This document shows, piece by piece, positions 4,280 through 32,315 of a DNA stretch of 32,447 nt. The stretch is from a virus. The position numbers were made by a program, and so were the translations under genes. Each line of letters starts with the position of its first letter. The stretch's first letter is position 1. The notes below the pieces were generated by a model, which saw only the letters and a list, made by a program, of their open reading frames with translations, had not been told where the DNA came from and searched no databases. The stretch covers positions 1-32,447 of IMG/VR virus record IMGVR_UViG_3300024518_003356; one strand, given 5' to 3'.

Positions 4280-5221
4280 TTAGCTCTGGTTGACGCTGGT
4301 CAGTCGGGCAAGACCACGGCGATTGAATTGGGCGAAGTTGACGTACCACTTGATGCGGTGGATCACTTCATCTTTCGTCTCCGACGTCCCGACGGACTCG
4401 ACCTGAATCCCAGCGGGAACACCCTCTGGATAGATCGCACTCACACCCAGCTTCCGACTGCCATCATCCCAGCAACCGGCGTAGAGCGACGTCAGTGCTC
4501 CGGTGGTTGTGGCGGCACCGTTGGCCGTCTCCGTGATGGTGATGTAGTCGTTTCGAAACAGGGGAATCCCGTCGTACATCAGGACGGTACGCTTCAGGCC
4601 GTTCGGCAGGGTGATCACGTCGGTCGGTGCAGCACCACCAAGGGCGCGATAGAGCGCCTTGTATTTGCGCAACATCGAGCGATGAGCCACGATGAAATCC
4701 ACCTCGCCATCCTTCGCGATCACCAGATCGAGCAGCTCGTCGATGAGGGCAAACGTCAGGGCCTGCCCAGCCGATGCTGTCGTGTACTGGCTGGAGTCGC
4801 AGAGCGAATGCAGCGAGTTCATGTTCGGGCTCGAACCATCGCCGACCGCGACCTGATTCTGAAAGGTTCGTCCAATGGTTTTCGACTTCGAGCTGATCTC
4901 CTGCGCGGACATGTCCACGCCATCCGAGGAGCCCTGAGCCTGAACGAGACCGTCCATGTCGACCTGGCCGATGATTTTCGAGGCCGTGAAGGTGGTCGCC
5001 GTTGCGGTGCTCGGTGTCCGGTGGGTGATCGAGTCGCCTACCGAGTACAGGCCAGCATCGCCGAGTGCGTTCTCCCGGTTGACAGTGACTCCGTCGCCAG
5101 AGTAGCCGTCCATCGGCATGAATTGGAACCAGGGATTGACCGTGATGATGTCTTCGGCAACACCTCGAACCAGGTCATCTTGGACGAACTTTGTGAGTTC
5201 TGCGAGTGTTTGGGTCGACAT
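4280..5221 (-). CDS. major capsid protein, HK97-like fold
   Basis: 313 residues, directly after the scaffold gene. The sequence shows the order typical of HK97-fold capsid proteins: an N-terminal helical arm (residues 1-25), a glycine/aspartate-rich strand section with polar loops (QFMPMDGYSGDGVTVNRE), a long spine helix (residues ~165-190, ALTFALIDELLDLV), then 'DFIVAHRSMLRKYKALYRALGG', where the fold's P-domain helix would be, and a beta-rich C-terminal A-domain with 'YDGIPLFRNDYI'. A GGAG ribosome site lies 8 bases before the ATG. No protease gene is seen between scaffold and capsid, so maturation may not need a phage protease encoded here. Hundreds of copies would form the shell around the packaged DNA. 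Confidence 0.85.
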   Translation of the reverse strand: MSTQTLAELTKFVQDDLVRGVAEDIITVNPWFQFMPMDGYSGDGVTVNRENALGDAGLYSVGDSITHRTPSTATATTFTASKIIGQVDMDGLVQAQGSSDGVDMSAQEISSKSKTIGRTFQNQVAVGDGSSPNMNSLHSLCDSSQYTTASAGQALTFALIDELLDLVIAKDGEVDFIVAHRSMLRKYKALYRALGGAAPTDVITLPNGLKRTVLMYDGIPLFRNDYITITETANGAATTTGALTSLYAGCWDDGSRKLGVSAIYPEGVPAGIQVESVGTSETKDEVIHRIKWYVNFAQFNRRGLARLTSVNQS

Positions 5222-6323: not shown

Positions 6324-6473
6324 CTATGGTTCCTTGCTGGCGGCCTTTCGCTTGGCGGCTTGCTCGTCTTCTTTTTTGATGAGAGCCTCGATGTCGCTTA
6401 GCCGGTCGGGCGTTCGCTTCGGCCAGTCGGCATTGGCTAAACTTTCGTCTGGTCTTGCTGTGTCTTTTCCCAT
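6324..6473 (-). CDS. 49-residue protein coupled to the MuF-toxin gene
   Basis: Short frame whose ATG shares a base with the TAA stop of the MuF gene (TAATG), so it is translationally coupled. The protein is charged: an N-terminal half with ARPDES and NADWPK, then an alanine/lysine/glutamate-rich helix (residues 26-47). The 14-residue N-terminal block is nearly identical to the C-terminal block of the protein at 31833-32315 (12 of 14 residues), which confirms that this is the coding frame and not the overlapping 72-codon frame. Function unknown. The position is where an immunity protein of a MuF polymorphic toxin, or a small head protein, could be encoded; neither is shown. Confidence 0.7.
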   Translation of the reverse strand: MGKDTARPDESLANADWPKRTPDRLSDIEALIKKEDEQAAKRKAASKEP

Positions 6474-8977
6474 TATTCACCCTGTAGTCCAAATGCGGTT
6501 TTCAACTCGTCAAGCATGCGCGCAAATCTATCTAGATACCGTGACTTCATCCACTTCGACAATGCGGTAATTCCACTCTTGCCCATGATGACGAATTCGT
6601 ACTCATTGAGACAGCCAAAACCCGTCCAGGCATTCGAGAGAATGTGCTCGACGGGAACTCGGACGGCGTGAAGATGTTGCATCCCACTTGCCGACCAAGT
6701 GAACTCAAGGGCGGCGCCCTCCTGGACGGCGAACGACGACAACGGCTGTAGTTCAAGGCTATGGAAGCCAGCGTATTGCCTTTCGTAGCCTGCTCCGCGA
6801 AACAGATTTACATGCGTGATGCCACGCTCCTTGAACCAATCCTGAGTCGCATCGTACATTGCGTCCAAGAATGCGTCGTACACGTCAGCGTTCCGCTTAA
6901 GCAGACGGTTGACATCGCGCATGAAATACGCGCTGCTTTGAAGGTGACTGATCTGACTGCCCTTCAGGCCGAATTTCTTTCTCGCCGCGAGTTGCATTGC
7001 GACGGCGTAGATATCGGTATCGCCGCTGGTGTCGGCCCACTTGTAGATCATCCCCTCCACTTTGGGCTTCAATTCCGCCGCTGTCCAGCCTGCTCGATTA
7101 TTCGCCGCCCTCGCCATCCTCGATGACAAATCATCCGCAATGTGGATCTTTGCATTCCGCCTGGTGACGGAACCGTTCACGTTCACTCCGCCCGTATACT
7201 GCTCGACCGCACGGTTCCTTTCTAACTTATTCCACTCGCCACTGAGCATCGAGTCCTCAAGAGCCTCATCGTCAAGCGGCTTCACTTTTCGGTGGTCCCG
7301 CTCTCTGGACTTGCTCGCTGCCTTGGGTTGTACCTTGGGGCTTCTCTTTTTGAAGACTTTCTCGAGTGCCTTGACTTTCTTCATGACGAGATCTCGTGGA
7401 TGACCCGGTGGCATGTCAAGAACTTTGGCGAACAGCCTGTCTATCTCTATCCGCAAGCGCTTGAGCGGAATTGCTTCGGCCTCCATAAGCGCGAAGGAAA
7501 GCTCCTTTTCGGACAGGAGCAGCGACTCTTTTTTAGCAAGAATCTTCTTCAGCCCCTCGAGTTCGCGCTTGATCCACGGTTTAAGCGGCGAATCTGTTTT
7601 AGCAAAGGCTTTGGCGCTGCCCTTGGCGTACTTGACGGCATTCGCAAGCTCTCCGGCCGTCATGTTCTCGGCCTTTGTCAGCTTGGCTGCCAGCTCGGCT
7701 TCTTGGGTCAGAAAGAACTTTTGTGACTCCGCAAGTTTCTGTGCCGGACTTGCCTTCGAGGGGGCGGGCTTCTTCTTGGCCTTGACGAAGATTTTGTCTA
7801 TGGCATTGGCATTCGCCGCGAGCTTTTGCTTGAGTTTCGTCGCTGACTGGAGCTTGGCCGCCTTAGCCTTGACCATCGCAGTGAGCTCCTTCAGTGTCCT
7901 GGTCCCACCGGATTTCGTGATCACGTCGCCCAGGGTGATCTCACCGTCCCGGTAAAGCTGAGCCTTCCCCTTGCCAAGAATGGCGTTCTGGGTGGCGGCA
8001 GGCTGCTTCGCGAACCAGTTTGGGCCGTTAAGGCGAGCTGGCACCTTGCCGTCGAATCGCTTCTTGACCGACGGCAGAGCCTTACTGTCCTGGAGCCCCA
8101 TCTCTTCCCAGGACTTCACCCACGGGTTGATGATCGATCGGCAGGCAACGTGACGCGGTGCGCCGCCGTTGTATTCGAGGCCGTCGACAGGGATGAGCTC
8201 GCCGCCCTTCTTTCCGAACAGCCACCTCGCACCAGCATAGACAACACAGACCGGGGTTGTTCGCTTGTCGAGTGCAGAGACCTGGTAGAGACCCTTGAGA
8301 GGTCCCTTTTTGCCCGAGTTTTCCTCGAAGACCTTCTTGCGAACATCGTTCATCACGTTAGTGACGCTCGTGCGTGTGAACGCTTTCGCCCAGTTCCGAG
8401 CACCCGGGATAACGCCCTTGTGCAGGCCGCCGCCCTTGATGCGCCGTGCGATCTCGTCTATGCCCTCGCCACGGATGACGCCCATCTGAATCTGTTGCTG
8501 AATCCCTGCCCGCACATCAGCGGCCTGCTTTGTCAACCAGTCCTTGGCATAGACGGCTCCACTTTCAGGACCAAGGTTCATGAGCGAGCCCTTTGAGATT
8601 CGCTCCAGCAAGTCGGGCGAAAGGCTTGTGGTGTTGACGTCAGCCATTCCGGACGGGATGTATTTCTTCAACTCCTTGTTCGAGAAGCCGAGCTCAAAGG
8701 CCGCGACATCCTTCAGCCCTTCCGCAAAGACGCGCTGGTATTCCGGCCCCAATGTCGCAAAGGTGCCGTTGATCTGCCGGGAGAGTGTCTTCATCCGAGC
8801 AACGCGCTGGGTCAACGCAGCGGGGGACGTGGGGTCGATCAGCTTGAGCTGGCCCAAGATCTCGGACTGCACCTGCTCGAGGAGGCTGAAGATTCGCTGG
8901 GCAATCGCCGCATCGAACTTCTTCATGTCGACCAGATGGCCGGTCATTCCCTTCCGGATGCTCTCTGGAATCGCCAT
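6473..8977 (-). CDS. MuF-like minor head protein fused to a C-terminal ADP-ribosyltransferase-like domain
   Basis: 834 residues. Residues ~195-290 are a phage Mu F / SPP1 gp7 domain: a helical 'RTSVTNVMNDVRKKV', then ALDKRTTPVC (235-244) and HVACRS (276-281), the conserved pattern of this minor head family. Residues ~300-590 are a long lysine/alanine-rich helical linker. Residues ~600-834 form a separate domain with the three landmarks of arginine-type ADP-ribosyltransferases: NLFRGAG (R727), LSSF (S747-S748) and NEYEF (E792-x-E794), in the right order and spacing. MuF proteins enter the head near the portal and can be ejected with DNA, so such fusions could act in the infected cell or as a polymorphic toxin. 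The MuF part is secure; the transferase part is a motif-based inference. Confidence 0.75.
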   Translation of the reverse strand: MAIPESIRKGMTGHLVDMKKFDAAIAQRIFSLLEQVQSEILGQLKLIDPTSPAALTQRVARMKTLSRQINGTFATLGPEYQRVFAEGLKDVAAFELGFSNKELKKYIPSGMADVNTTSLSPDLLERISKGSLMNLGPESGAVYAKDWLTKQAADVRAGIQQQIQMGVIRGEGIDEIARRIKGGGLHKGVIPGARNWAKAFTRTSVTNVMNDVRKKVFEENSGKKGPLKGLYQVSALDKRTTPVCVVYAGARWLFGKKGGELIPVDGLEYNGGAPRHVACRSIINPWVKSWEEMGLQDSKALPSVKKRFDGKVPARLNGPNWFAKQPAATQNAILGKGKAQLYRDGEITLGDVITKSGGTRTLKELTAMVKAKAAKLQSATKLKQKLAANANAIDKIFVKAKKKPAPSKASPAQKLAESQKFFLTQEAELAAKLTKAENMTAGELANAVKYAKGSAKAFAKTDSPLKPWIKRELEGLKKILAKKESLLLSEKELSFALMEAEAIPLKRLRIEIDRLFAKVLDMPPGHPRDLVMKKVKALEKVFKKRSPKVQPKAASKSRERDHRKVKPLDDEALEDSMLSGEWNKLERNRAVEQYTGGVNVNGSVTRRNAKIHIADDLSSRMARAANNRAGWTAAELKPKVEGMIYKWADTSGDTDIYAVAMQLAARKKFGLKGSQISHLQSSAYFMRDVNRLLKRNADVYDAFLDAMYDATQDWFKERGITHVNLFRGAGYERQYAGFHSLELQPLSSFAVQEGAALEFTWSASGMQHLHAVRVPVEHILSNAWTGFGCLNEYEFVIMGKSGITALSKWMKSRYLDRFARMLDELKTAFGLQGE

Positions 8978-14223: not shown

Positions 14224-14451
14224 TCAGTGTTCACCCTTGTCTGGCAGAGCCGACGGCGGCCTGCACCATCGACAAGCGCAGTCGCCCTCTGCATGCTTCT
14301 CCGCCATCTCAGAACCAACTCCATGATCGCGCGGCGGATTGGAGTGTCTCGTTCGAACTCGCTTCATCAGCTCATCGACAACGCGATCGCCCTCTTCCGA
14401 GATCGGGAGCGTTGCCGCCACCATGCGAATCAACTGGATGAACTTCCTCAT
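14224..14451 (-). CDS. small hypothetical protein in front of the large terminase
   Basis: 75 residues. The N-terminal half is an amphipathic helix (LIRMVAATLPISEEGDRVVD), followed by basic residues and a C-terminal CACRWCRP motif that could bind a metal. Its codon pattern is more protein-like than that of the competing upstream extension of the terminase frame, and it ends 11 bases before the terminase ATG. An intrinsic terminator stem ends about 26 bp before its start codon, with the T-run almost touching it, so it must be reached by readthrough or by an internal promoter. No family recognised. Confidence 0.6.
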   Translation of the reverse strand: MRKFIQLIRMVAATLPISEEGDRVVDELMKRVRTRHSNPPRDHGVGSEMAEKHAEGDCACRWCRPPSALPDKGEH

Positions 14452-15708: not shown

Positions 15709-16320
15709 TCAGTTCTCGGGACTAGTTTGGGACGTTGCGCCTGGCAACCTGCCCTCCCTTCGCAGTCTTGCGATCATGGCCGCATGCTCCTCGGTGGAGA
15801 GGGGCTTCGGAATCATAATCTTCTCCTCGACCTGTAACGCCTGCACGGTAGAGGGCTCTCCGCGTGAGACCCTCTCGAGATTGGCGGCAGCTGTCAGTAG
15901 GTTTGGAACGACACCGAGCGACAAGCCCGGCACGTCAAAGTCCTCGCCGTTGGACTGGGTGATGCGGGTCTGCACCTTTCGCAAAGTGGCCTTGAGTTTC
16001 AGCGAGCACAACTGGATCGCTTCGCTTGCAACCTCCGCATGCTTCTCCGCCATTCGAATCACGGTCCGCGAGAGAGCTCGCTGGCGTAGGCGATCCTGGT
16101 GATCGTCCCAGTCCCCAACGCGGTCTCGCCAGTCGTGTTTCGATGCCCACTTCTGGACCATTCGCACGTAGCTGGGCTTCCGCTCAAGAAGCCTGACCAC
16201 TTCGGCATGAGTGCGGCGCTCGACGGGCATGTCTCGGTAGGTGTGGAACGCCCGGAAGGCAACCCCTGACTCGTTGAGCCGCCTGTCCCACGGTCTGCGA
16301 TGTTTGTCGTCGCGTTCCAT
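15709..16320 (-). CDS. terS: probable terminase small subunit (HTH DNA-binding)
   Basis: 203 residues. Residues 36-70 hold a helix-turn-helix with the pattern 'VVRLLERKPSYVRMVQKWASKHDWRDRVGDWD', the KxxW-type motif found in phage small terminases and related HTH proteins that recognise pac or cos. A central coiled-coil segment (RALSRTVIRMAEKHAEVA onward, residues ~82-115) would form the oligomer ring. The C-terminus (TEEHAAMIARLRREG) may contact the large subunit. It lies upstream of the large subunit in the same transcription direction, though six small genes separate them. There is no clear ribosome site. The role is inferred from HTH type and location. Confidence 0.65.
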   Translation of the reverse strand: MERDDKHRRPWDRRLNESGVAFRAFHTYRDMPVERRTHAEVVRLLERKPSYVRMVQKWASKHDWRDRVGDWDDHQDRLRQRALSRTVIRMAEKHAEVASEAIQLCSLKLKATLRKVQTRITQSNGEDFDVPGLSLGVVPNLLTAAANLERVSRGEPSTVQALQVEEKIMIPKPLSTEEHAAMIARLRREGRLPGATSQTSPEN

Positions 16321-17729: not shown

Positions 17730-18106
17730 GGTATTTCCCTCGCAATCCTGCGCAGGTTTTGGATAGGAAGGAAGGTTCCAAGAAGGTCCTTGTCGTGCTT
17801 CTCAATCTTCCGCTCGAGGACCCTGCGCTCGGCCTTCTCGGCGCGACCTCTGGCGATGGCCTCGTCGGCCTTCCGTGACGGACTGCGGTAGTCGTTTCGA
17901 CGTCTCATGGGAGCGGCCAGATGCACTTCAATCCTCCGCCAGCCACGCTTGAGCTCCCGATATCGGCGGTGCTGCCACTGCACGATCTTGCGCGCCAGCT
18001 TCTTTTTCCCGAGCTCGGTTCTCTCCTTCGCGACGAGGAGGTCGTACTGCACGGAAGCCTCCTTTGTGGACCGGTTCCAGAGCTTGTGACACCGTTTCTT
18101 TCTCAT
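17726..18106 (-). CDS. basic helical hypothetical protein, first gene of the leftward unit
   Basis: 126 residues from the ATG at 18106, preceded by a strong AAGGAGG at six bases; the longer frame to 18178 would run through the operator region. Very rich in R and K throughout (MRKKRCHKLWNRSTK at the start, KKKLARKIVQWQHRRYRELKR in the middle), helical, with no transmembrane segment. It probably binds nucleic acid. It faces the RHH gene across a 110-bp divergent control region and is therefore the first gene under that region's leftward promoter. No family recognised. Confidence 0.65.
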   Translation of the reverse strand: MRKKRCHKLWNRSTKEASVQYDLLVAKERTELGKKKLARKIVQWQHRRYRELKRGWRRIEVHLAAPMRRRNDYRSPSRKADEAIARGRAEKAERRVLERKIEKHDKDLLGTFLPIQNLRRIAREIP

Positions 18107-18216
18107 GATTCCTCCTTGAATTACCAGATCAGTACCCAGTAATTGTACAGGAACTGGTAATTTTTGTATATAATCCATTCAGGCAAACGCCTCGACCACC
18201 AACCAGGGAGACCAAG
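18107..18216. promoter_or_regulatory. divergent promoter-operator region
   Basis: Inverted repeat ATTACCAG (18120-18127) / CTGGTAAT (18154-18161), plus a third related half-site ATTACTGG on the minus strand (18144-18137). Rightward: -10 TATAAT at 18169-18174, directly beside the right arm, with a weak -35. Leftward: TACAAT with TATACA 17 bp upstream, both within the repeat area. An RHH protein binding the half-sites would cover both promoters. The RHH gene follows at 18217. Confidence 0.65.
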
Positions 18217-18384
18217 ATGAAGACGATCAACATCCGCATCGACGAGAAGCTGTTGCGCAACTTTGACGCTACTGTCGAGAGTCTCGGCGCCAAGCGGGCG
18301 CCGGTCATCCGCCTTCTGATGCGGGACTATCTCACCACAAGCGCAGATCTCTTGAGCAAGCGCGAGGCTCAGCGAACCAAATGA
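18217..18384 (+). CDS. ribbon-helix-helix (CopG/Arc-type) repressor-like protein
   Basis: 55 residues. KTINIRID at residues 2-9 is the DNA-contacting ribbon, followed by helix A (EKLLRNFDATVESLG), the turn AKRAP and helix B (VIRLLMRDYL), the classic RHH arrangement. AGGGAG precedes the ATG by about 8 bases. Such dimers bind short inverted or direct half-sites; the repeats just upstream are good candidates, which would make this an autoregulated switch between divergent units. The C-terminal tail (residues 41-55) is polar. The stop overlaps an ATG (ATGA) that opens a 16-codon frame. Confidence 0.8.
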   Translation: MKTINIRIDEKLLRNFDATVESLGAKRAPVIRLLMRDYLTTSADLLSKREAQRTK

Positions 18385-21371: not shown

Positions 21372-21683
21372 ATGAAACCGACTCTCATTGAGCGCGAGAT
21401 CATCGAAATGCGGCAACGAGGCGTGCCGTATCGCGTCATCGAACAGAGAACGGGGGTGAAGCGGGGTTCCGTCTACGGAATCGCCATGAGAGCTGGACTC
21501 GTCGGAAAATACGTCAAGCCCCTGAAACCAAGGTGCACAAGCTGCAATAAGCGTCGAGGTGACTCATCACCACTGTGCGATCGGTGCAAAAAGGACCGGG
21601 CACCTCGTGTGGAGAACGGGGAAATGCCAATGACAGAGGAACAGGCAACCCTGATGCTTGCCAAGATGGGACATCGTCGATGA
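21372..21683 (+). CDS. helix-turn-helix protein with C-terminal zinc ribbon
   Basis: 103 residues. Residues 6-40 form an HTH of the type found in transposase and phage regulators (EREIIEMRQRGVPYRVIEQ, then GVKRGSVYGIAM). Residues 55-72 have CTSC and CDRC, ten residues apart, a four-cysteine zinc ribbon. The C-terminal helix TEEQATLMLAKMG is polar. Likely a sequence-specific DNA-binding regulator or a recombination helper. Its stop overlaps the next start by ATGA. Confidence 0.65.
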   Translation: MKPTLIEREIIEMRQRGVPYRVIEQRTGVKRGSVYGIAMRAGLVGKYVKPLKPRCTSCNKRRGDSSPLCDRCKKDRAPRVENGEMPMTEEQATLMLAKMGHRR

Positions 21684-22989: not shown

Positions 22990-23003
22990 AAAAGGAAAGA
23001 AGA

Positions 23004-24140
23004 ATGAGCGAACAAGCCAACGACAAACTCCTGCTTCACGGTGAGTCAACGGACTCGGCCGTCACGGATCTGGCCGCCAGCTCTCAGACAGCCGAAGCCA
23101 CATCTATGGTGCAGTCAGCCGCAGTGATGGCGAAACGGTTTCCACGCAACGAAGAGGCGTTCTTCCAGGCGATCACGCGGTCCTGTCAGCGGTCAAGGTT
23201 CGCCGAAGGCGCCAGCTATGCCTTCAAGCGAGGAAAGACCAAGAATCCCGTCACCGGCAGGTGGGAAGACAACGTGATCACCGGTCCCTCGATCAAACTC
23301 GCACGGGAAGCCAAGCGGCTGTGGGGAAACATTCGAACCGGTCTCGAGATACTCGTCGACGAGGCGGGAGACGGCACCAGCCGGAACCCTGGCCTTCGCC
23401 GGATTCGCGGCTGGGCATGGGACCTTCAGACAAATACGTTCGAGTCATTCGAGGACAGCTTTCAGAAACTGATCCAACGAAAGGTCGGGAAATGGCCCAA
23501 TCAGAAAACCGAGTGGGTGATTCCCGACGAGCGCGATCTCCGGGAGCTCACCTTCCGCAAGGGCGCCATCTGCCAGCGAAACGCAATTCTCGCAGTACTG
23601 CCTCCCGACATGATCGATGATGCGAGAGAGGTGGCCTACGGCACTCTCAAGTCCGAGGTTGAAAAAGACCCAGACTCGGCAAAGAAGAAAGTCCTGATCG
23701 GCTTCAACGTCCTCAATATCTCATCCGAAATGCTGGAGGAATATCTGGGGCATCCATTGCGACAGATCTCGCCCGCTGAGATTATTCAGCTTCGCGAGAT
23801 CTACGCCTCGATCAGAGACGGAAATTCAAGCTGGGCCGAGTACACCGGCGAGGCCGATGAGGCGCAAAAGCCCAAGGACATCGTCGGCAAGGCCGACATC
23901 CCCAAGGCCAAGGCGAAGCCCAAAGCCGCAGGGCCACCGTGGAAAACAATCGCCAAGAAAGATCTTGCCAGCATCGTGAAGCGGCTCAAGGCGCTGGGCG
24001 TCGACGAGCGCGACCTCCTCGCGACGGCACAGGTTGACGAAGAAGTGAGCAAGCTGGCCGATCTCCCACTGGATGAGCTGGACAAGATCCACGACATTCT
24101 CGACGCCCAGGAAGAACGCTCTGGCAAACAGCTCGACTAA
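23004..24140 (+). CDS. putative single-strand annealing protein (recombinase partner)
   Basis: 378 residues from the ATG at 23004; the longer frame is not supported. Residues 44-75 (KRFPRNEEAFFQAITRSCQ and AEGASYAFKRG) are followed by VITGPSIKLAREAKRLWGNI (91-110), RGWAWDLQTNT (about 134-144) and FRKGAICQRNAILAVLPPDMI (about 190-212), which together match a phage family found beside PD-(D/E)XK nucleases and considered single-strand annealing proteins. The C-terminus, after a proline/lysine-rich linker, has a helical hairpin (DLASIVKRLKALGVDERDLL). It would bind resected single strands and anneal them. The function is inferred from the neighbour nuclease and pattern. Confidence 0.65.
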   Translation: MSEQANDKLLLHGESTDSAVTDLAASSQTAEATSMVQSAAVMAKRFPRNEEAFFQAITRSCQRSRFAEGASYAFKRGKTKNPVTGRWEDNVITGPSIKLAREAKRLWGNIRTGLEILVDEAGDGTSRNPGLRRIRGWAWDLQTNTFESFEDSFQKLIQRKVGKWPNQKTEWVIPDERDLRELTFRKGAICQRNAILAVLPPDMIDDAREVAYGTLKSEVEKDPDSAKKKVLIGFNVLNISSEMLEEYLGHPLRQISPAEIIQLREIYASIRDGNSSWAEYTGEADEAQKPKDIVGKADIPKAKAKPKAAGPPWKTIAKKDLASIVKRLKALGVDERDLLATAQVDEEVSKLADLPLDELDKIHDILDAQEERSGKQLD

Positions 24141-25881: not shown

Positions 25882-26694
25882 ATGCACCCGACCAGCGTGA
25901 TTCTCGCCGACGGGCTCCTCCTCAATCCACTGGTGCCCCAGGCCGCCGAATTGGTGTCCTGGGGATACAACTACTGGGAACAGCCAGACTCGCCACCGGA
26001 TCCGCCGCCGAGCTGGGACTTCGCTCCATACGAATGGCAGAACGTCCAGCTGCTCATTTGTAGCCGAGTCTTTATGCCGAGTGAATCGGGCAGGGATCAC
26101 CCCGTGACGCTGAGGGTTGCGGTCATCCCTGGCACAAACGAGCTCCGGGACTGGAAAGCGAATTTTCACCTCGTTCCAACGAAGGTCGGCGGATTGGTCG
26201 GGCGATACCGGCGAGGCTTTGCGCTGGGCGGTGCCTGGGCGTGGAGCGTTCTGGATCATCATCGCGGCGGCGGGGATGTTCTCGGGATCTTTGGTCACTC
26301 CTATGGTGGGGCCATGACGGTGACGGCAGCGGCTCACGCGGTCCGCGACGGCGCCGAGTCTAGGCTTGTAGCCGTCCTACCGTTTGCTGCTCCGAGATCG
26401 ACGTCCAGGGCCGCTACGAAACTCCTGAACAGTAAATTGCCAGCTCCCGTAGCCCAGCAGTTCATCCTCGGGTTCGATGCGGTGCCCTGGGCCGTTTTGC
26501 CCCTTTGGTGGACAAGGGCCTTTGAGGTCGTTTACGTGAGTTCAGACGGAACAGCCCGAAGCAAATACCGGTTCGGCGCCGAGCTGAAACGAGCGATCAC
26601 AAAAAGAGGATTCCAGTCCGCTGGTGACCACGGAAGCGAGCGATACCGGGCATGGGCGAGGTCGCTACCAGCCGCAATACCCTTCGAGGCATAA
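25882..26694 (+). CDS. class-3-lipase-like serine hydrolase
   Basis: 270 residues. IPGTNELRDWKANF (82-95) fits the oxyanion-hole 'GTxxxxDW' segment of class-3 lipases; RYRRGF is the equivalent of the 'HxGF' loop; FGHSYGGA (137-144) is the nucleophile elbow with S140; FDAVPW (198-203) supplies the likely acid D199 in the family's 'DxVP' position; and DHGSERY (249-255) supplies H250. A full triad in the right order strongly suggests an active alpha/beta hydrolase. There is no signal peptide, so it probably works in the cytoplasm on host lipids, or is released at lysis. It closes the long early operon. Confidence 0.75.
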   Translation: MHPTSVILADGLLLNPLVPQAAELVSWGYNYWEQPDSPPDPPPSWDFAPYEWQNVQLLICSRVFMPSESGRDHPVTLRVAVIPGTNELRDWKANFHLVPTKVGGLVGRYRRGFALGGAWAWSVLDHHRGGGDVLGIFGHSYGGAMTVTAAAHAVRDGAESRLVAVLPFAAPRSTSRAATKLLNSKLPAPVAQQFILGFDAVPWAVLPLWWTRAFEVVYVSSDGTARSKYRFGAELKRAITKRGFQSAGDHGSERYRAWARSLPAAIPFEA

Positions 26695-26731: not shown

Positions 26732-26800
26732 TTTTTTGCGCAAGACCATATACTTTTCGCGCAAACCTGCCTATAATTCCCTCATGCCAACAAACCAAGG
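26732..26800 (+). promoter_or_regulatory. repeated promoter-like element, copy 1
   Basis: Six T (26732-26737) run into a TTGCGCAA palindrome (26736-26743), then CCATATAC (26746-26753) and, exactly 26 bases later, TATAAT (26772-26777). The downstream leader ATTCCCT...AGGGAAT can form a 7-bp stem. It precedes the gene at 26811. Weak stem GCGCCT/AGGCGC lies just upstream. Confidence 0.75.
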
Positions 26801-26810
26801 GAATAAAGCA

Positions 26811-27101
26811 ATGACACCGAAGGCCACCAGAAAGTTGCTAGTCAGCGAAAAGATCGATCGCGAGATGACGTTGACTGTTGAGGACGGAAGAGAAGTTGGA
26901 GAAGACAATGCAACGATGGCCATCGATCAGGAGGCAGACCGAGACGGAAGCAAGCTCGAACACTATTGTGGGTATCTCAACAATGTCGAATGCATGTTGT
27001 TAGAGGGTGACTGCCGAGTGCACGAGGTTCATCGGGCAGCCACTGAGAGATTCGAGGAAATCCTGAGAGAGAACGGAATTACCGTTATCGAGGATCTGTA
27101 G
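26811..27101 (+). CDS. hypothetical acidic protein (accessory cassette 1)
   Basis: 96 residues from the ATG preceded by AAGGGAAT; an in-frame ATG at 26784 lies at the likely transcription start, so leaderless initiation cannot be excluded. The product is acidic and helical with few hydrophobic residues: TLTVEDGREVGED in the middle and HRAATERFEEILREN near the end. Two cysteines (residues 65, 74) and H80 cluster. First gene of a two-gene cassette opened by promoter element copy 1. No family recognised. Confidence 0.55.
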   Translation: MTPKATRKLLVSEKIDREMTLTVEDGREVGEDNATMAIDQEADRDGSKLEHYCGYLNNVECMLLEGDCRVHEVHRAATERFEEILRENGITVIEDL

Positions 27102-27125
27102 GTAAGAGGAAGAAGGAGAAGCGAG

Positions 27126-27389
27126 ATGTCTACAACCTGGAAGAATAGAAGTGGCGAGACGGTCGGAGTTCGGAGTTGCCGAGCGAAGGCCGACGGCGGC
27201 GGAAGTCGCTGGACTTGGACGACAAATCCTGTGCGAGCGATGAATCGTGACCGCGGCGAAGTCCAGGACGAGGCAGGCGGTCCCTGGGTGAACGTCCGAG
27301 ACGTGGTCGCAGCATGTAAGGAGGTCGTCAACGACTCCGATCGCAGGGTCCCCAGCGTCGAGGAGTGGTGTGAAAAGCGGTGGCCCTAG
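27126..27389 (+). CDS. hypothetical protein (accessory cassette 1)
   Basis: 87 residues. AAGGAG is near the ATG. It is rich in tryptophan (six) and charged residues; GGGSRWTWTTNP around 24-35, and a C-terminal helix VVAACKEVVND. No motif known. It ends 28 bases before an intrinsic terminator, so it closes cassette 1. No family recognised. Confidence 0.55.
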   Translation: MSTTWKNRSGETVGVRSCRAKADGGGSRWTWTTNPVRAMNRDRGEVQDEAGGPWVNVRDVVAACKEVVNDSDRRVPSVEEWCEKRWP

Positions 27390-27416
27390 GCCACTTCCCC
27401 CGCAAACGGGAACAAG

Positions 27417-27440
27417 AAAAGGCCCTTCGGGGCCTTTTTT
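27417..27440 (+). terminator. intrinsic terminator of cassette 1
   Basis: Stem AAAAGGCCC/GGGCCTTTT with tetraloop TTCG, followed by six T at 27435-27440. It is strong and nearly symmetrical, so it may work in both directions. The T-run leads into the next promoter element. Confidence 0.9.
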
Positions 27441-27450
27441 CGTATGCAAA

Positions 27451-27510
27451 CGCGCAAAAAGTTGATCACGGCCATATACTTTTCGCAAACACGGGCCTAT
27501 AATTCCCTTC
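27451..27510 (+). promoter_or_regulatory. repeated promoter-like element, copy 2
   Basis: CCATATAC (27472-27479) and TATAAT (27498-27503) spaced 26 bases apart, as in the other copies, and the leader CCCTTCATGGCAACA. The GCGCAA box is displaced (27452 onward) by about 23 extra bases relative to copies 1, 3 and 4. It opens directly onto the HNH gene. Confidence 0.7.
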
Positions 27511-27882
27511 ATGGCAACAACACGAAACTGGAACGGGATGAACTGGATCCGCCAAGAAAAGCGGCTCGCCATCTACCTCAGAGACGGTCTAGCTTGCGCC
27601 TACTGCAAAGCGACACTCGAGGACGGCATCACGCTCACCCTCGATCATTGCAAGGCCCACAGCCACGGCGGGACCAACCACGAGACGAACTTGGTCACCT
27701 GCTGCAAGCGGTGTAACAGCTCACGCGGAAACCGGCCGATGGCAGCCTTTGCCAGGGTCGTCGCCGAGTACATCAACCACGGTGTCACCGCGAAAAGCAT
27801 TCTCGACCACATTCGCAACTGCCGCCGCCGCAAGCTCGACATCACAGAAGCCAAGGCGATCATCAGTCGCCGGGAAAACTAG
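27511..27882 (+). CDS. HNH endonuclease
   Basis: 123 residues. CAYC (29-32), LDHCKAHSHGG (44-54; H46), N60 and CKRCNSS (65-71) give the HNH fold with two structural CxxC pairs. It hydrolyses DNA using a metal; phages use such proteins as homing enzymes, in packaging, or as defence. The ATG at 27511 lies at the expected transcription start; M10 at 27538 has GGAACGGG upstream and may be the real start. It is the first gene of cassette 2, not near the terminase, so an accessory or mobile role is more likely than packaging. Confidence 0.8.
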   Translation: MATTRNWNGMNWIRQEKRLAIYLRDGLACAYCKATLEDGITLTLDHCKAHSHGGTNHETNLVTCCKRCNSSRGNRPMAAFARVVAEYINHGVTAKSILDHIRNCRRRKLDITEAKAIISRREN

Positions 27883-27891
27883 GAGAACAAA

Positions 27892-28152
27892 ATGAGCGCA
27901 ATCACTCCGGAATCCGAAGCGGCCGAGATGGCTTACTCGATGTCCCAACCCACTTGCAAAGAATGCGGTGGCGGTCTGAACAACCTCGATGAGTGCCGCG
28001 AAGGCATTCATTTTCACTGCAAAGTGGAGTGCGAGCGCTGCGGAGAAATGGGCGCGTGGTCTGACTGGCGAGAACCATCCACCGGAGATTTCGCACCGAC
28101 GTTGTGCGAGAAGTGCGCGAATGCAGACGGCCTCTGTTGCGGTCTCGCTTGA
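27892..28152 (+). CDS. zinc-binding small protein
   Basis: 86 residues. Cysteine/histidine pairs: CKEC, HFHC, CERC and CEKC, i.e. a double zinc-ribbon or LIM-like arrangement (residues ~22-77). AGGAG precedes the ATG. Such small zinc proteins often bind nucleic acid or host proteins. Second gene of cassette 2, 9 bases after the HNH gene. No family recognised. Confidence 0.65.
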   Translation: MSAITPESEAAEMAYSMSQPTCKECGGGLNNLDECREGIHFHCKVECERCGEMGAWSDWREPSTGDFAPTLCEKCANADGLCCGLA

Positions 28153-28189
28153 AACAGAAAAGCAGAACAAAAACCAAGGGAGAAATGAA

Positions 28190-28390
28190 ATGACCCAGGA
28201 CCAACGAGACGAAATTGTCGCCATCGCCAACGATGCGGCCATTGAACTGAATTGTCTCCTCGATGCCCTAGCGGCGGTCGACCAGAAAGATCTCGTCACC
28301 TTCGGGCGGGAAATTCCGGAACAACTCCACGGGCTCTCCCGGAAAATCGAACGGCAGAGGAACCCCGTCGCGCACAGGGGAGCGAGATGA
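28190..28390 (+). CDS. small helical hypothetical protein
   Basis: 66 residues, helical throughout (QDQRDEIVAIANDAAIELN; CLLDALAAVDQKD), with a basic C-terminus. AAGGGAG lies upstream; between them is a second ATG whose reading frame stops at once (ATGAAATGA), so ribosomes may first meet a two-codon frame. Overlaps the next gene by ATGA. No family recognised. Confidence 0.55.
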   Translation: MTQDQRDEIVAIANDAAIELNCLLDALAAVDQKDLVTFGREIPEQLHGLSRKIERQRNPVAHRGAR

Positions 28391-28602
28391 GATTCAGGAA
28401 CCACACCGAAGTTCTGTTCGGACATGTCATCGCCGATCACCAAGTTCTTCACTTCGATTCGCGGGAAATCGAGACTCTCGAGAGAGCAACGAAAATCCTA
28501 GAAACCGCCCGCGATCTTGTCGACGAAATTGACCTAGAGCTAGCCATTGACCTCGGGTTGGCCGAGTCAATTCTCCTTGACCTAACGGGGGCACTCGACT
28601 AA
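28387..28602 (+). CDS. small hypothetical protein
   Basis: 71 residues, starting in an ATGA overlap. N-terminal strands (VLFGHVIADHQVLHF) are followed by two acidic helices (EIETLERATKILETAR; EIDLELAIDLGLAES). Probably a small alpha/beta protein. No family recognised. Confidence 0.55.
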   Translation: MRFRNHTEVLFGHVIADHQVLHFDSREIETLERATKILETARDLVDEIDLELAIDLGLAESILLDLTGALD

Positions 28603-28615
28603 GGGAGTGAAGGCC

Positions 28616-28825
28616 ATGTCTGAGCTCTACAAAAGCCCTCGCGGGCAGTGGGTGACACCGACGAAAGCCAAGCGGCTGATTCGGCACATGTCGCGCCGTC
28701 TGCACCTCCTCGGCGACCACTCCGCCGCTTACTTCATTGACAGTGGCTGGCGGCGAGTGGCAGCCCGCCCCGCGACGTGGCTCAAACTCAACCAGCGATT
28801 GCAAACAAGGGAAGACCTGAGATGA
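28616..28825 (+). CDS. small basic hypothetical protein
   Basis: 69 residues from ATG 28616 (a GTG nine bases upstream is also possible); GGGAG is nearby. Basic and arginine-rich: KAKRLIRHMSRRLHLLG, with two tryptophans in the C-terminal half (WRRVAARPATW). It may bind nucleic acids. Overlaps the next gene by ATGA. Confidence 0.5.
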   Translation: MSELYKSPRGQWVTPTKAKRLIRHMSRRLHLLGDHSAAYFIDSGWRRVAARPATWLKLNQRLQTREDLR

Positions 28826-29121
28826 AATACATCGAAACCGAGACCGGCTGCGACGATCACTGCTGCCCTGGGTGGGTACCCAATTTCGACTACGACTCGA
28901 TCGAGCGATGCGACAGTTGTGCGGTGTTCGAGACCGACAATGACGCAGCAGAGTTCGTCGCGAAGACCGAGTCGAGAGAGGTCGTGACGTGGGTCATCTG
29001 CGAGACTATTCAACTCATCCTGGAAGATGCAGATCCGAAGCGAGACCTCTGCAACGTCTTCCAAGAGCACCGAGCCGCCGCTGGCGAGGCGAGATTGAGA
29101 TGCCTCCACAACAGCAAATGA
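28822..29121 (+). CDS. cysteine-rich hypothetical protein
   Basis: 99 residues. The N-terminus has CDDHCCPG (residues 10-17) and CDSC (30-33), a possible zinc site, followed by an acidic helical C-terminal half (VICETIQLILEDADPKRDL). Translation is coupled by ATGA overlap at the start. No family recognised. Confidence 0.55.
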   Translation: MKYIETETGCDDHCCPGWVPNFDYDSIERCDSCAVFETDNDAAEFVAKTESREVVTWVICETIQLILEDADPKRDLCNVFQEHRAAAGEARLRCLHNSK

Positions 29122-29375
29122 AGGTTCAACTCTGGGTGTCGAAGCGCGTCAAGCTGGCGCTCATCCTCCATCCCTCGACGCTGTACCACAATGGATGGCG
29201 AATCACCTACTGGGACGAGCTTGGCCCCTCCGGCCACACCGAGCATTCGTCATTCGACGACGCTGTTGCCGATCTGAGATCGCAAATTGGACCATGGCAG
29301 GGGTGCCCTGAATTGGACCTGCCGGGCACTGAGTGCACCTGCGAAAAGGTCGCCGTACCACCAGACTGGATGTGA
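29118..29375 (+). CDS. hypothetical protein, last gene of cassette 2
   Basis: 85 residues from the ATG that overlaps the previous stop (ATGA); an ATG six codons earlier at 29100 is also in frame. Beta-rich N-terminal half (QLWVSKRVKLALIL; GWRITYWDEL), histidine/aspartate loops, and a C-terminal ECTCEK motif. It is followed after 10 bases by an intrinsic terminator. No family recognised. Confidence 0.5.
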   Translation: MKVQLWVSKRVKLALILHPSTLYHNGWRITYWDELGPSGHTEHSSFDDAVADLRSQIGPWQGCPELDLPGTECTCEKVAVPPDWM

Positions 29376-29385
29376 GCCCTTGAAC

Positions 29386-29436
29386 CCCCTTCCGTACCGC
29401 CAGCCTAGCTGGGCATACGGAAAGGGGCATTTTTTT
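29386..29436 (+). terminator. intrinsic terminator of cassette 2
   Basis: CCCC-TT-CCGTA pairs with TACGG-AAA-GGGG (29386-29396 with 29416-29427), enclosing a smaller GCCAGC-type stem, followed by seven T at 29430-29436. The T-run forms the upstream end of promoter copy 3. Confidence 0.85.
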
Positions 29437-29490
29437 GCGCAAAGCCATATACATTTAGACGAGATCAGCCTATAATTCTCTCATGCCAAT
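29430..29490 (+). promoter_or_regulatory. repeated promoter-like element, copy 3
   Basis: T-run, TTGCGCAA (29435-29442), CCATATAC (29445-29452) and TATAAT (29471-29476), with the same 26-base spacing; leader ATTCTCTCATGCCAA. The terminator and promoter share the T-run. Confidence 0.75.
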
Positions 29491-29512
29491 CACCAACCAC
29501 AAGGGAATCAAC

Positions 29513-29692
29513 ATGAGAGCACCAAGCGAACAGACCGCAGACAGCGTGGTGAGAGTCAGCAATCCGGACGAATGCACTCTCCCCGGTTTGGTTGGCCGGA
29601 TTGCCCGCGCGAGCCTCAAATATCACGGGTTTTATTCCTACACCGACGCGGATGGTCAAAAAGTTCTCGTCAAACTGGAGACCTCGAAATGA
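29513..29692 (+). CDS. small hypothetical protein (cassette 3)
   Basis: 59 residues from the ATG with AAGGGAATC upstream; an in-frame ATG at 29483 sits at the promoter start. Mixed helix and beta: DECTLPGLVGRIARASLKY then a short strand pair (GFYSYTDADGQKVLVKLE). Overlaps the next gene by ATGA. No family recognised. Confidence 0.5.
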   Translation: MRAPSEQTADSVVRVSNPDECTLPGLVGRIARASLKYHGFYSYTDADGQKVLVKLETSK

Positions 29693-29931
29693 CCTCCAGA
29701 ACCAATCCGAGCGTTGAAAAAGTTCATCAAGCAAACATGGAACAAGCTCAGCGGCTGCTCGAAAGCATCGATGCGAACTTGGACATTCTCAATCCTGGCC
29801 GCAGTGGAGTGAACTGGGCTCATGCAGGAAGTTCTCGGCAGTTGGTCGACGACCTCACGGTCGCGATGGCATCGCTGATTGGCGTCGAGCCCAATGAAAT
29901 CCCGGCAATCATCAATGAAGTGTACGCCTGA
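29689..29931 (+). CDS. small helical hypothetical protein (cassette 3)
   Basis: 80 residues, helical, amphipathic (VEKVHQANMEQAQRLLESID; LVDDLTVAMASLIG). Starts in an ATGA overlap. Fifteen bases separate it from the OB-fold-like gene. No family recognised. Confidence 0.55.
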   Translation: MTSRTNPSVEKVHQANMEQAQRLLESIDANLDILNPGRSGVNWAHAGSSRQLVDDLTVAMASLIGVEPNEIPAIINEVYA

Positions 29932-29946
29932 AAGAGAGACTAGAAA

Positions 29947-30870
29947 ATGACACGCACCGATCTTCATCGACCCGCCGAAATCGCGCCAGCCGACTACGAC
30001 TATCTCTTCAGCTACTACTACGGCCGATTCTCATGGAACACGGCTCTGCTGGCGGCCGTACGAACCGGCGAGCCACAAAGTGAGCCCACCTGGGGCGTAG
30101 ACCCCGCCACCGGCAACGACTGCATCATCGGGTCCCGACAGGTGACAAGCCCCTGGGGAAAGCTGCCATTCTTTGAAAAAGAGGGCTTCGGTGGCTGCGA
30201 CATCTGCGGGGCAAACTACCTGGCAGGGGCCGCGTTCCTTCATCGCCCTTCGGGCGAGGTCATCACAATTGGACACATCTGCGCCGACAAGATGGACGTC
30301 CACTACGACAAAGGCGACTGGCTCGAGAACCAGCGGCGCATCGCCAAGCTCCGCAAGACGTCCAAGTTCATCCAGGAACGACTAGCCAAGAAGCAGAGGA
30401 CCAAGACCCAGGCCGCCGAGTTCCTCGCCGAGAACGAGGGGCTAGAGGACGCTTTGAAAACCGACCACTACATTTCCCAAGATCTTGCCGCGAACCTCGC
30501 AAAGTGGGGTGGCCTATCCGAGAAGCAGGTCGCCCTCGCCTTCAAGCTTCAGACAGACGCGAACAAGCCCGTTGATCCCAATGAGCCAGTCGACGTCAAA
30601 CCCCCCGAGGGGCGAGTTGTGATCACCGGCGAGGTTCTTTCCATCAAGGAGCGCTTCGACGACTATGGCTCCACCATGAAAATGACGATCAAGTGCAAAT
30701 CTGAACTCGGCCAGTTCCGCCTCTGGGGAACCTGCCCAGCGGCAATCGTCAGCAGCGCGCCAAACCGCGGGGACATGGTCCGGTTCACCGCGACGATCAA
30801 GCCAAAAGAAAACGGGTTTGGCTTCTTCTCTCGCCCCACCAAGGCAGCGGTGCTGGCGCCAACTGTATAG
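29947..30870 (+). CDS. zinc-binding protein with C-terminal OB-fold-like domain
   Basis: 307 residues. GGCDICGAN (82-90) with H99 and C112 forms a likely zinc site in the N-terminal third; a basic helical part follows (RIAKLRKTSKFIQERLAKKQ). Residues 222-307 (GRVVITGEVLSIKERF, then GSTMKMTIKC, FRLWGTCP, GDMVRFTATI) are a five-strand beta pattern typical of OB folds, which bind single strands. The protein type is common in actinobacterial and other phage genomes without known function. It may protect or repair single-stranded DNA. No catalytic residues seen. Confidence 0.6.
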   Translation: MTRTDLHRPAEIAPADYDYLFSYYYGRFSWNTALLAAVRTGEPQSEPTWGVDPATGNDCIIGSRQVTSPWGKLPFFEKEGFGGCDICGANYLAGAAFLHRPSGEVITIGHICADKMDVHYDKGDWLENQRRIAKLRKTSKFIQERLAKKQRTKTQAAEFLAENEGLEDALKTDHYISQDLAANLAKWGGLSEKQVALAFKLQTDANKPVDPNEPVDVKPPEGRVVITGEVLSIKERFDDYGSTMKMTIKCKSELGQFRLWGTCPAAIVSSAPNRGDMVRFTATIKPKENGFGFFSRPTKAAVLAPTV

Positions 30871-30891
30871 AAAAGGGCGTGTCACGGGATC

Positions 30892-30945
30892 TTTTTTGCG
30901 CAAAGCCATATACTTTTCGCAAGTATCAGCCTATAATTCCCTCAT
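30892..30945 (+). promoter_or_regulatory. repeated promoter-like element, copy 4
   Basis: Six T (30892-30897), TTGCGCAA (30896-30903), CCATATAC (30906-30913) and TATAAT (30932-30937), with the 26-base spacing again and the leader ATTCCCTCATCGCAA. Upstream GGATC is shared with copy 1. Confidence 0.75.
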
Positions 30946-30976: not shown

Positions 30977-31387
30977 ATGAAACGCCAAGAACAAACCCCG
31001 ACGATCTTCACCAAAGACGACAGCGCCCAACTACAGCAGCTCCTCAGCAAGCTCCGGGATGCCGCAACCGACGCAGTCGACAAAGCAACTGCTGACAACT
31101 ACGACCGGATGAAGGACTTCTTCGTCGAGCCTGGCGCTGACACTGACAGCCCAGAATATGCATCCTTCAATGCTTCTTGGTCCACCCAGAACGACTTGAA
31201 TCACGCCAACAACCAACTCGCCGGCAACGCTGCCTGGCTCGCCAGGGACATGGTTGAGCTCGTCACTCGCATCGCCGAGGGCGGCGCAGTGTCCACCGGA
31301 ACGTCAACGCTCTATTCGAACGTTGTTCAAGGGCAAGCCGAAGTCGCGGCCCTCACCCGGATGACCGAGATTCTCGGACGAGGTTGA
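30977..31387 (+). CDS. helical hypothetical protein (cassette 4)
   Basis: 136 residues from the ATG preceded by AAAGGGAA. Helix 1 is SAQLQQLLSKLRDAATDA, helix 2 NDLNHANNQLAGNAAWLARD, and a final helix VVQGQAEVAALTRM; the middle is acidic (EPGADTDSPEY). Likely an all-alpha protein. No family recognised. First gene of cassette 4. Confidence 0.6.
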   Translation: MKRQEQTPTIFTKDDSAQLQQLLSKLRDAATDAVDKATADNYDRMKDFFVEPGADTDSPEYASFNASWSTQNDLNHANNQLAGNAAWLARDMVELVTRIAEGGAVSTGTSTLYSNVVQGQAEVAALTRMTEILGRG

Positions 31388-31458
31388 TCAATTCAAAGTG
31401 GGCCGTCAATCTCGGCGGCTCCTTTTGAGCGGACCAACCAGAACCAAGGGGAACCAAA

Positions 31459-31836
31459 ATGCGCGTAACACTCGAAAATCCAGCAACCCATCACGCTATC
31501 AACCTGCACAGCTGGGAAGACGAGGATGACTTTCGTGCCGAGCTTTACTGGTTCCACGGTGACAAGGATGAGTACCAAGAGCAGGTCGACATTGCCTACG
31601 AAGGCAAGTTCGGCAACAACCCAAAGTTCACCATCAACTGGCGGGCGCTCGGATCGCAAGACCTCGAACTCACCGAGCAATACGCCGCCCTTCTCACCTT
31701 GGCCACTCGCATCGCAAGACGCACGGAATCCAAGATTGACTACTACGGCTGCTTCAACCAAAAGCTTCTCCCAATCGATCATGCGGTCAAGGTCCTCAAG
31801 GAAATGGGCTGGGGCTTGGTGAAAGGACAATCATGA
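31459..31836 (+). CDS. hypothetical protein (cassette 4)
   Basis: 125 residues, RBS AAGGGGAA. N-terminal beta segment (MRVTLENPATHHAINLHSW), acidic linker, then a helix ALLTLATRIARRTESKID. Aromatic residues are frequent. It overlaps the next gene by ATGA. No family recognised. Confidence 0.6.
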   Translation: MRVTLENPATHHAINLHSWEDEDDFRAELYWFHGDKDEYQEQVDIAYEGKFGNNPKFTINWRALGSQDLELTEQYAALLTLATRIARRTESKIDYYGCFNQKLLPIDHAVKVLKEMGWGLVKGQS

Positions 31837-32315
31837 AACAGAGTCACCGCCTCATCGAACTTTGCGAATCGCACATGGCGAGAATTATCCACAAAATCGG
31901 TCACCTAGAAGAAGGGCCCCCTCTTGATTTCCGCAATCGAGAAGAGCTCCGTCTTTTAGCGGATGATCTCCGCAAGGCAGCCAATCGATTTGAAGGGGAG
32001 ACACCGCCCACTTACATGGTCACGGACTTCAATAGGACCGCCATTTATGGGATCGGGAACTCTCGCGATGAGGCTATGGAAGAAATCCAAGAATGGACGA
32101 ATGGGGATTGTGGCGAGATGGAAGTGCACCAATGCACTAGAAAGTTGTACGAGAAAATCGTGGACATCGGTGGTTGCGGGATCGCATGGGAATTCGATGA
32201 CGAAGGTGTCGCGTGCCTTCGAGTCGACGTAGAGGTAGCAAGGCCAGATGAGTCGATCGTCAATGCCGACTGGCCCAAACTCAACAAGCGGAATCGCCGA
32301 GAATCGGCTGTCTAA
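31833..32315 (+). CDS. hypothetical protein with C-terminal tag shared with the 49-residue late protein
   Basis: 160 residues. N-terminal helical hairpin (residues 1-50), a beta/alpha middle, cysteines near 92-102 and 116, and a C-terminal tail in which ARPDES and NADWPK appear around residues 137-150. The same block opens the protein at 6324-6473 (12 of 14 residues identical). This points to a shared interaction peptide. The gene starts in an ATGA overlap. Function unknown. Confidence 0.6.
   Translation: MKQSHRLIELCESHMARIIHKIGHLEEGPPLDFRNREELRLLADDLRKAANRFEGETPPTYMVTDFNRTAIYGIGNSRDEAMEEIQEWTNGDCGEMEVHQCTRKLYEKIVDIGGCGIAWEFDDEGVACLRVDVEVARPDESIVNADWPKLNKRNRRESAV

Follow-up and report, generated by a model that had tools for sequence, protein, structure and literature searches.

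A repeated promoter-like element heads four cassettes of small genes in the genome of an uncultured bacterial virus

Four copies of one intergenic element in the rightward arm

The window analysed here is a whole 32,447-base virus record from IMG/VR (IMGVR_UViG_3300024518_003356) that belongs to an uncultured bacterial virus. Structural genes (terminase, portal, Mu F-like and capsid) form a leftward arm starting at about 18.1 kb; the rightward arm, which runs to the end of the window, holds genes of replication and recombination together with small accessory genes. Named genomes among the relatives of the terminase are mostly Pseudomonadota, a distribution that hints at, rather than shows, a Gram-negative host. 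In the structural arm, an 834-aa protein (6473-8977, - strand) begins with a Mu F-like domain and continues in a long C-terminal stretch, where the motifs LFRG, LSSF and NEYE have, by eye only, the look of an ADP-ribosyltransferase-type domain; genes of the same arm also contain a 22-base direct repeat (14286-14307 and 16032-16053, 95% identical). Between the arms, at 18115-18216, lie divergent overlapping promoters with AATTACCAG...CTGGTAATT repeats that adjoin an RHH-like gene at 18217. The leftward promoter of this pair reads TATACA-N17-TACAAT and is followed by AAGGAGG and an ATG at 18106, and the region looks like an autoregulated early/late switch.

Scanning the window for CCATATAC-N18-TATAAT with zero mismatches returned exactly four sites, at 26746, 27472, 29445 and 30906 (copies A, B, C and D), all within the final 6 kb of the rightward arm, on the + strand, intergenic and facing the next gene. 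An initial annotation had placed a repeated element at these four coordinates, with a constant register of 26 bases from CCATATAC to TATAAT, and both statements were borne out, the register being exact in 4/4 copies. In shuffled windows, allowing up to three mismatches, the pattern was matched 0.35 times on average, and none of 100 shuffles reached five matches. Both CCATATAC and CCTATAATT occur in the window only at the four copies. We also scanned the window with a matrix of 42 columns built from these copies, which scored 57-63 bits; the next best site scored 1.3 bits, about 56 bits lower and a value that random sequence also reaches. The number of copies is therefore exactly four, with no weaker ones elsewhere in the window, and the motif search through the rest of the genome that the annotation had proposed adds none. 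The gaps that hold the copies measure 106-137 bp. The remaining gaps of the rightward arm are at most 77 bp long, with the single exception of one of 175 bp near the start of the arm, and the copies thus sit in all but one of the five longest gaps that separate + strand genes. Coordinates of all parts are given in Table 1.

Table 1. Parts of the four copies and the cassettes downstream of them (start sites predicted from geometry)
Feature	Position	Strand	Details
Copy A upstream element: T6 tract and dyad TTGCGCAA	26732..26743	+	-52..-41 from predicted start
Copy A CCATATAC box on -35 position	26746..26753	+	hexamer TATACT 26749-26754
Copy A CCTATAATTCCCTCA	26770..26784	+	-10 TATAAT 26772-26777; predicted start A 26784
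Copy A putative leader, 27 nt, AAGGGAA ribosome-binding site	26784..26810	+	gene ATG 26811; in-frame ATG at +1
Cassette A: two small genes, 26811-27101 and 27126-27389	26811..27389	+	family match: none
Intrinsic terminator ahead of copy B, AAAAGGCCC-TTCG-GGGCCTTTTTT	27415..27440	+	-16.5 kcal/mol, z -2.9; T6; outside repeat
Copy B upstream element: A5 tract and partial dyad TTGATCAc	27456..27469	+	dyad 27462-27469, -48..-41
Copy B CCATATAC box	27472..27479	+	
Copy B CCTATAATTCCCTTCA	27496..27511	+	-10 27498-27503; predicted start 27510-27511
Cassette B: HNH endonuclease 27511-27882 and six small genes	27511..29375	+	HNH leaderless or starting 27538
Intrinsic terminator ahead of copy C	29385..29437	+	hairpin 29385-29427, -26.1 kcal/mol, z -3.5; T7 run shared with copy C upstream element
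Copy C T-tract and dyad TTGCGCAA	29431..29442	+	
Copy C CCATATAC box	29445..29452	+	hexamer TATACA 29448-29453, 4/6 to TTGACA
Copy C CCTATAATTCTCTCA	29469..29483	+	-10 29471-29476; predicted start 29483
Cassette C: 29513-29692, 29689-29931 and 29947-30870 (307 aa)	29513..30870	+	
Copy D T6 tract and dyad TTGCGCAA	30892..30903	+	
Copy D CCATATAC box	30906..30913	+	
Copy D CCTATAATTCCCTCA	30930..30944	+	-10 30932-30937; predicted start 30944; +1..+3 = ATC
Cassette D: 30977-31387, 31459-31836 and 31833-32315	30977..32315	+	probably extends past contig end

The cassette proteins of the four copies are unrelated to one another, and the possibility that gene and promoter had been duplicated as one unit was ruled out on the ground that these proteins are not paralogous. 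The 307-aa protein of cassette C carries a zinc-finger-like CxxC motif, and towards its C-terminus it is similar to proteins of Microbacterium phages that bear an ssDNA-binding annotation (37% identity, with 47% of the query covered). Directly ahead of copy A, the accessory arm encodes a class 3 lipase-like protein (25882-26694, + strand; Pfam Lipase_3, above cut-off).

Conservation follows the geometry of a promoter

Positions within the element are counted from a predicted start that was set from geometry only, by taking TATAAT as -12 to -7. This start, 7-8 nt past TATAAT, coincides in copies A, C and D with the A of a conserved CAT. The repeated unit is a promoter-like stretch of about 56-68 bp, and identity falls to chance level beyond about -56 to +12. 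All 19 columns of two blocks, -38..-31 (CCATATAC) and -15..-5 (GCCTATAATTC), are invariant across the four copies, and only one of the nine columns of the mid-spacer (-24..-16) is kept. Since both blocks are invariant and the spacer between them is nearly randomised, CCATATAC seems to be under specific selection; flanks at chance identity and non-paralogous cassette proteins further argue that it is the element itself that has been kept. The evidence comes from four copies in one genome for which close relatives were not found; by their divergence, the copies look old enough to have scrambled neutral positions while selection held both boxes.

The -10 hexamer matches its consensus in 6/6 positions and lies at a 17-bp spacer, within the 16-18 bp that characterise sigma-70 promoters. 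At the -35 position, on which CCATATAC lies, the hexamer is TATACT, which agrees with TTGACA in 3/6 positions (TATACA, with 4/6, in copy C), and the copies total 9-10 of the 12 consensus bases of the two hexamers. The annotation had found no good -35 box at the usual distance; the hexamer is weak indeed, but CCATATAC is itself the -35 region, 17 bp from TATAAT. A promoter scan of 17.5-32.4 kb gave five sigma-70-like sites against 4.4 expected, that is, no excess, and among the four copies only copy C passed its rule. C-38, C-37, A-34 and T-33 are dispensable for a normal -35 box, yet they are constant in all copies. This invariance of non-consensus bases suggests a reader of CCATATAC that replaces or supplements ordinary sigma-70 region 4.

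Upstream of CCATATAC, an A/T tract is present in 4/4 copies at about -54..-47. The annotation had reported T6 followed by TTGCGCAA in three copies; this stands for A, C and D, where the two occupy -52..-41, but copy B has a partial counterpart, as TTGATCAc in the same place makes an 8-bp TTG-N2-CA(A) dyad centred at -44.5 common to all four copies, although the partial match in B could be due to chance. Such a dyad fits a small dimeric DNA-binding protein. TTGCGCAA is also found inside genes, at 4665, 6295 and 18253.

In copies A, C and D the predicted leaders are 27-33 nt long and unstructured, with AAGGGA-type ribosome-binding sites before the ATG; sites of this type also precede genes that lack the element. 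We considered leaderless translation as the role of the conserved ATG at +1 and rejected it for the element because copy D carries ATC there. The annotation had described a terminator-promoter module, a description that does not hold: strong hairpins lie upstream of B and C only, they are unlike each other in sequence and fall outside the conserved unit, the hairpin near copy A is weak and some 12 nt away from the T-run, and copy D has none. Where they are present, the strong terminators insulate copies B and C. Merging of the terminator T-run into the promoter is seen at copy C but not at copy B, where the run ends 31 bp before CCATATAC.

Possible control of the four operons

The elements are probably dispersed copies of one phage promoter, each driving an operon of small genes, with an extra protein that co-controls all four. 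Under this reading each copy would start rightward transcription of its operon 7-8 nt after TATAAT, and in copy B the start site would coincide, exactly or nearly so, with the beginning of the HNH gene. The main sigma factor of the host would most likely read TATAAT at the normal 17-bp spacing, and the poor but invariant CCATATAC, the A/T tract and the TTG-N2-CAA dyad at -44.5 would most likely be bound by a further, probably phage-encoded protein that activates, or times, the four operons together. The annotation's view of four related promoter-like elements as a co-regulated set is supported as likely, since each of them heads small genes. The repeats would group about 15 small genes, mostly uncharacterised, into four operons, mark phage genes that are turned on jointly, and offer a short candidate binding site for a possible phage regulator.

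As to the nature of that regulator, the annotation had suggested that a phage activator or an unusual holoenzyme recognises CCATATAC or the palindrome. A sequence-specific factor at either site is plausible because the bases are invariant and the spacer has drifted, but an unusual holoenzyme is unsupported: the -10 and the 17-bp spacing are those of ordinary sigma-70, and the window, on a contig that may be incomplete, yielded no match to sigma-70 region 2 or 4. A more specific version, which we put forward tentatively, is that CCATATAC and the dyad form the site of a new phage-encoded activator that redirects host polymerase to promoters devoid of a proper -35, thus defining a middle-gene regulon of four operons in a phage lineage that may have no studied member. 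Candidate regulators are two RHH-like genes, at 18217 and 18560 (the latter only weakly RHH-like), and a helix-turn-helix/zinc-ribbon-like gene at 21372. All three are below curated cut-offs, and the gene at 18217 has no match above them. No evidence links any of these genes to the element, and the promoter region of the gene at 18217 bears a repeat different from it, which counts against the reading set out above, as do the small number of copies, all from one genome, and the promoter scan that gave no excess of sites.

The four copies might instead be plain early promoters used by the host sigma-70/sigma-A holoenzyme alone, TATACT/TATACA being a lineage-specific or weak -35 and the A/T tract an UP element. 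The optimal spacing, the perfect TATAAT, the overall consensus score and the presence of the tract in every copy all favour this simpler explanation, as does the occurrence of TATACA-N17-TACAAT in the leftward promoter of the structural arm, although that sequence shares bases with the rightward -10 and its presence may be incidental. What makes it somewhat doubtful is that the non-consensus bases, together with a CC outside the hexamer, are invariant despite a nearly randomised spacer. The dyad might also be a putative operator for a repressor that shuts down the four operons together, for instance during lysogeny or at a late stage of infection. It adjoins the -35 region and persists partially in copy B, and the window encodes the two RHH-like proteins already mentioned, a class that often binds short palindromes. 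We consider this unlikely, given that the proteins scanned included no recognisable integrase or clear immunity repressor and that TTGCGCAA also occurs within genes.

Least probable by far is that the repeats serve mainly as recombination linkers, or mobile boundary elements for the shuffling of cassettes, with promoter activity as a secondary trait. Copies A and D share 85% identity across 67 bp, the copies sit at cassette boundaries and the phage encodes a homologue of exonuclease VIII (RecE-type), as such a role would have it; conservation, however, tracks promoter contacts rather than a continuous block of homology, and no rearranged relative appeared among the relatives searched.

Comparison with other phages

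MotA-dependent middle promoters of phage T4 combine a perfect -10 with a phage-specific box in place of the -35 region. The element described here resembles them in its perfect -10 and in having a box at the -35 region, and differs in the box and in the spacing; nothing like MotA or AsiA was noticed in the set of proteins scanned. Closer in layout are the extended start-associated sequences (ESAS) of cluster K mycobacteriophages, first described in PMC3203893. In one of these phages, Adephagia, seven intergenic ESAS copies of 46-47 bp contain SigA-like hexamers 17-18 bp apart and an inverted repeat (PMC11373665). The likeness lies in several intergenic copies of one element with -35/-10 hexamers and an inverted repeat. 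In ESAS, however, this repeat is imperfect and of 15-17 bp, and the element is paired with a 13-bp SAS that lies at the start codon (PMC3203893, PMC11373665), whereas here the dyad at -44.5 measures only 8 bp, the SAS is replaced by ordinary AAGGGA-type ribosome-binding sites and the host is presumably unrelated. T4-like phages have promoter early stem-loops (PeSLs), repeated promoters that lie between small accessory genes and are in some cases accompanied by a stem-loop terminator (PMC4503421), and a similar motif is described for the haloarchaeal virus HGTV-1 (PMC3950731). Multiple copies between small accessory genes are a shared trait; a stem-loop within the repeated unit is not, two copies having none and the other two unrelated ones. 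No relative with the right arm was found in which gene shuffling among related phages, the role ascribed to PeSLs, could be followed. In our comparison the element would work like ESAS, yet it lacks the ESAS inverted repeat and SAS as well as the PeSL stem-loop. Given the absence of these defining features, it is best filed as an independent case of repeated intergenic phage promoters.

Searches for the element itself gave no match in 84,980 GTDB genomes (strict 24-base pattern) or in Rfam. In IMG/VR, exact patterns of 16-18 specified bases gave no match, or else chance hits that lay in AT-rich DNA or lacked a -10, and BLAST against phage and plasmid records gave none, or one match at E = 5. 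The sequence of the element is thus in no other record searched, and its wiring principle is already known from other phages. Relatives reached through single proteins, with up to 51% identity for the protein encoded at 23001-24137 and up to 56% for the terminase, have just those genes, or the packaging block, in common with the window and are without the right arm and the element. The closest by terminase is an 87-kb viral contig (IMGVR_UViG_3300037755_000987), 70% G+C in the part examined, which has TerS, TerL (56%) and portal (48%), and not the right arm, in common with the window. On this comparison, the packaging block is common to phages of very different base composition.
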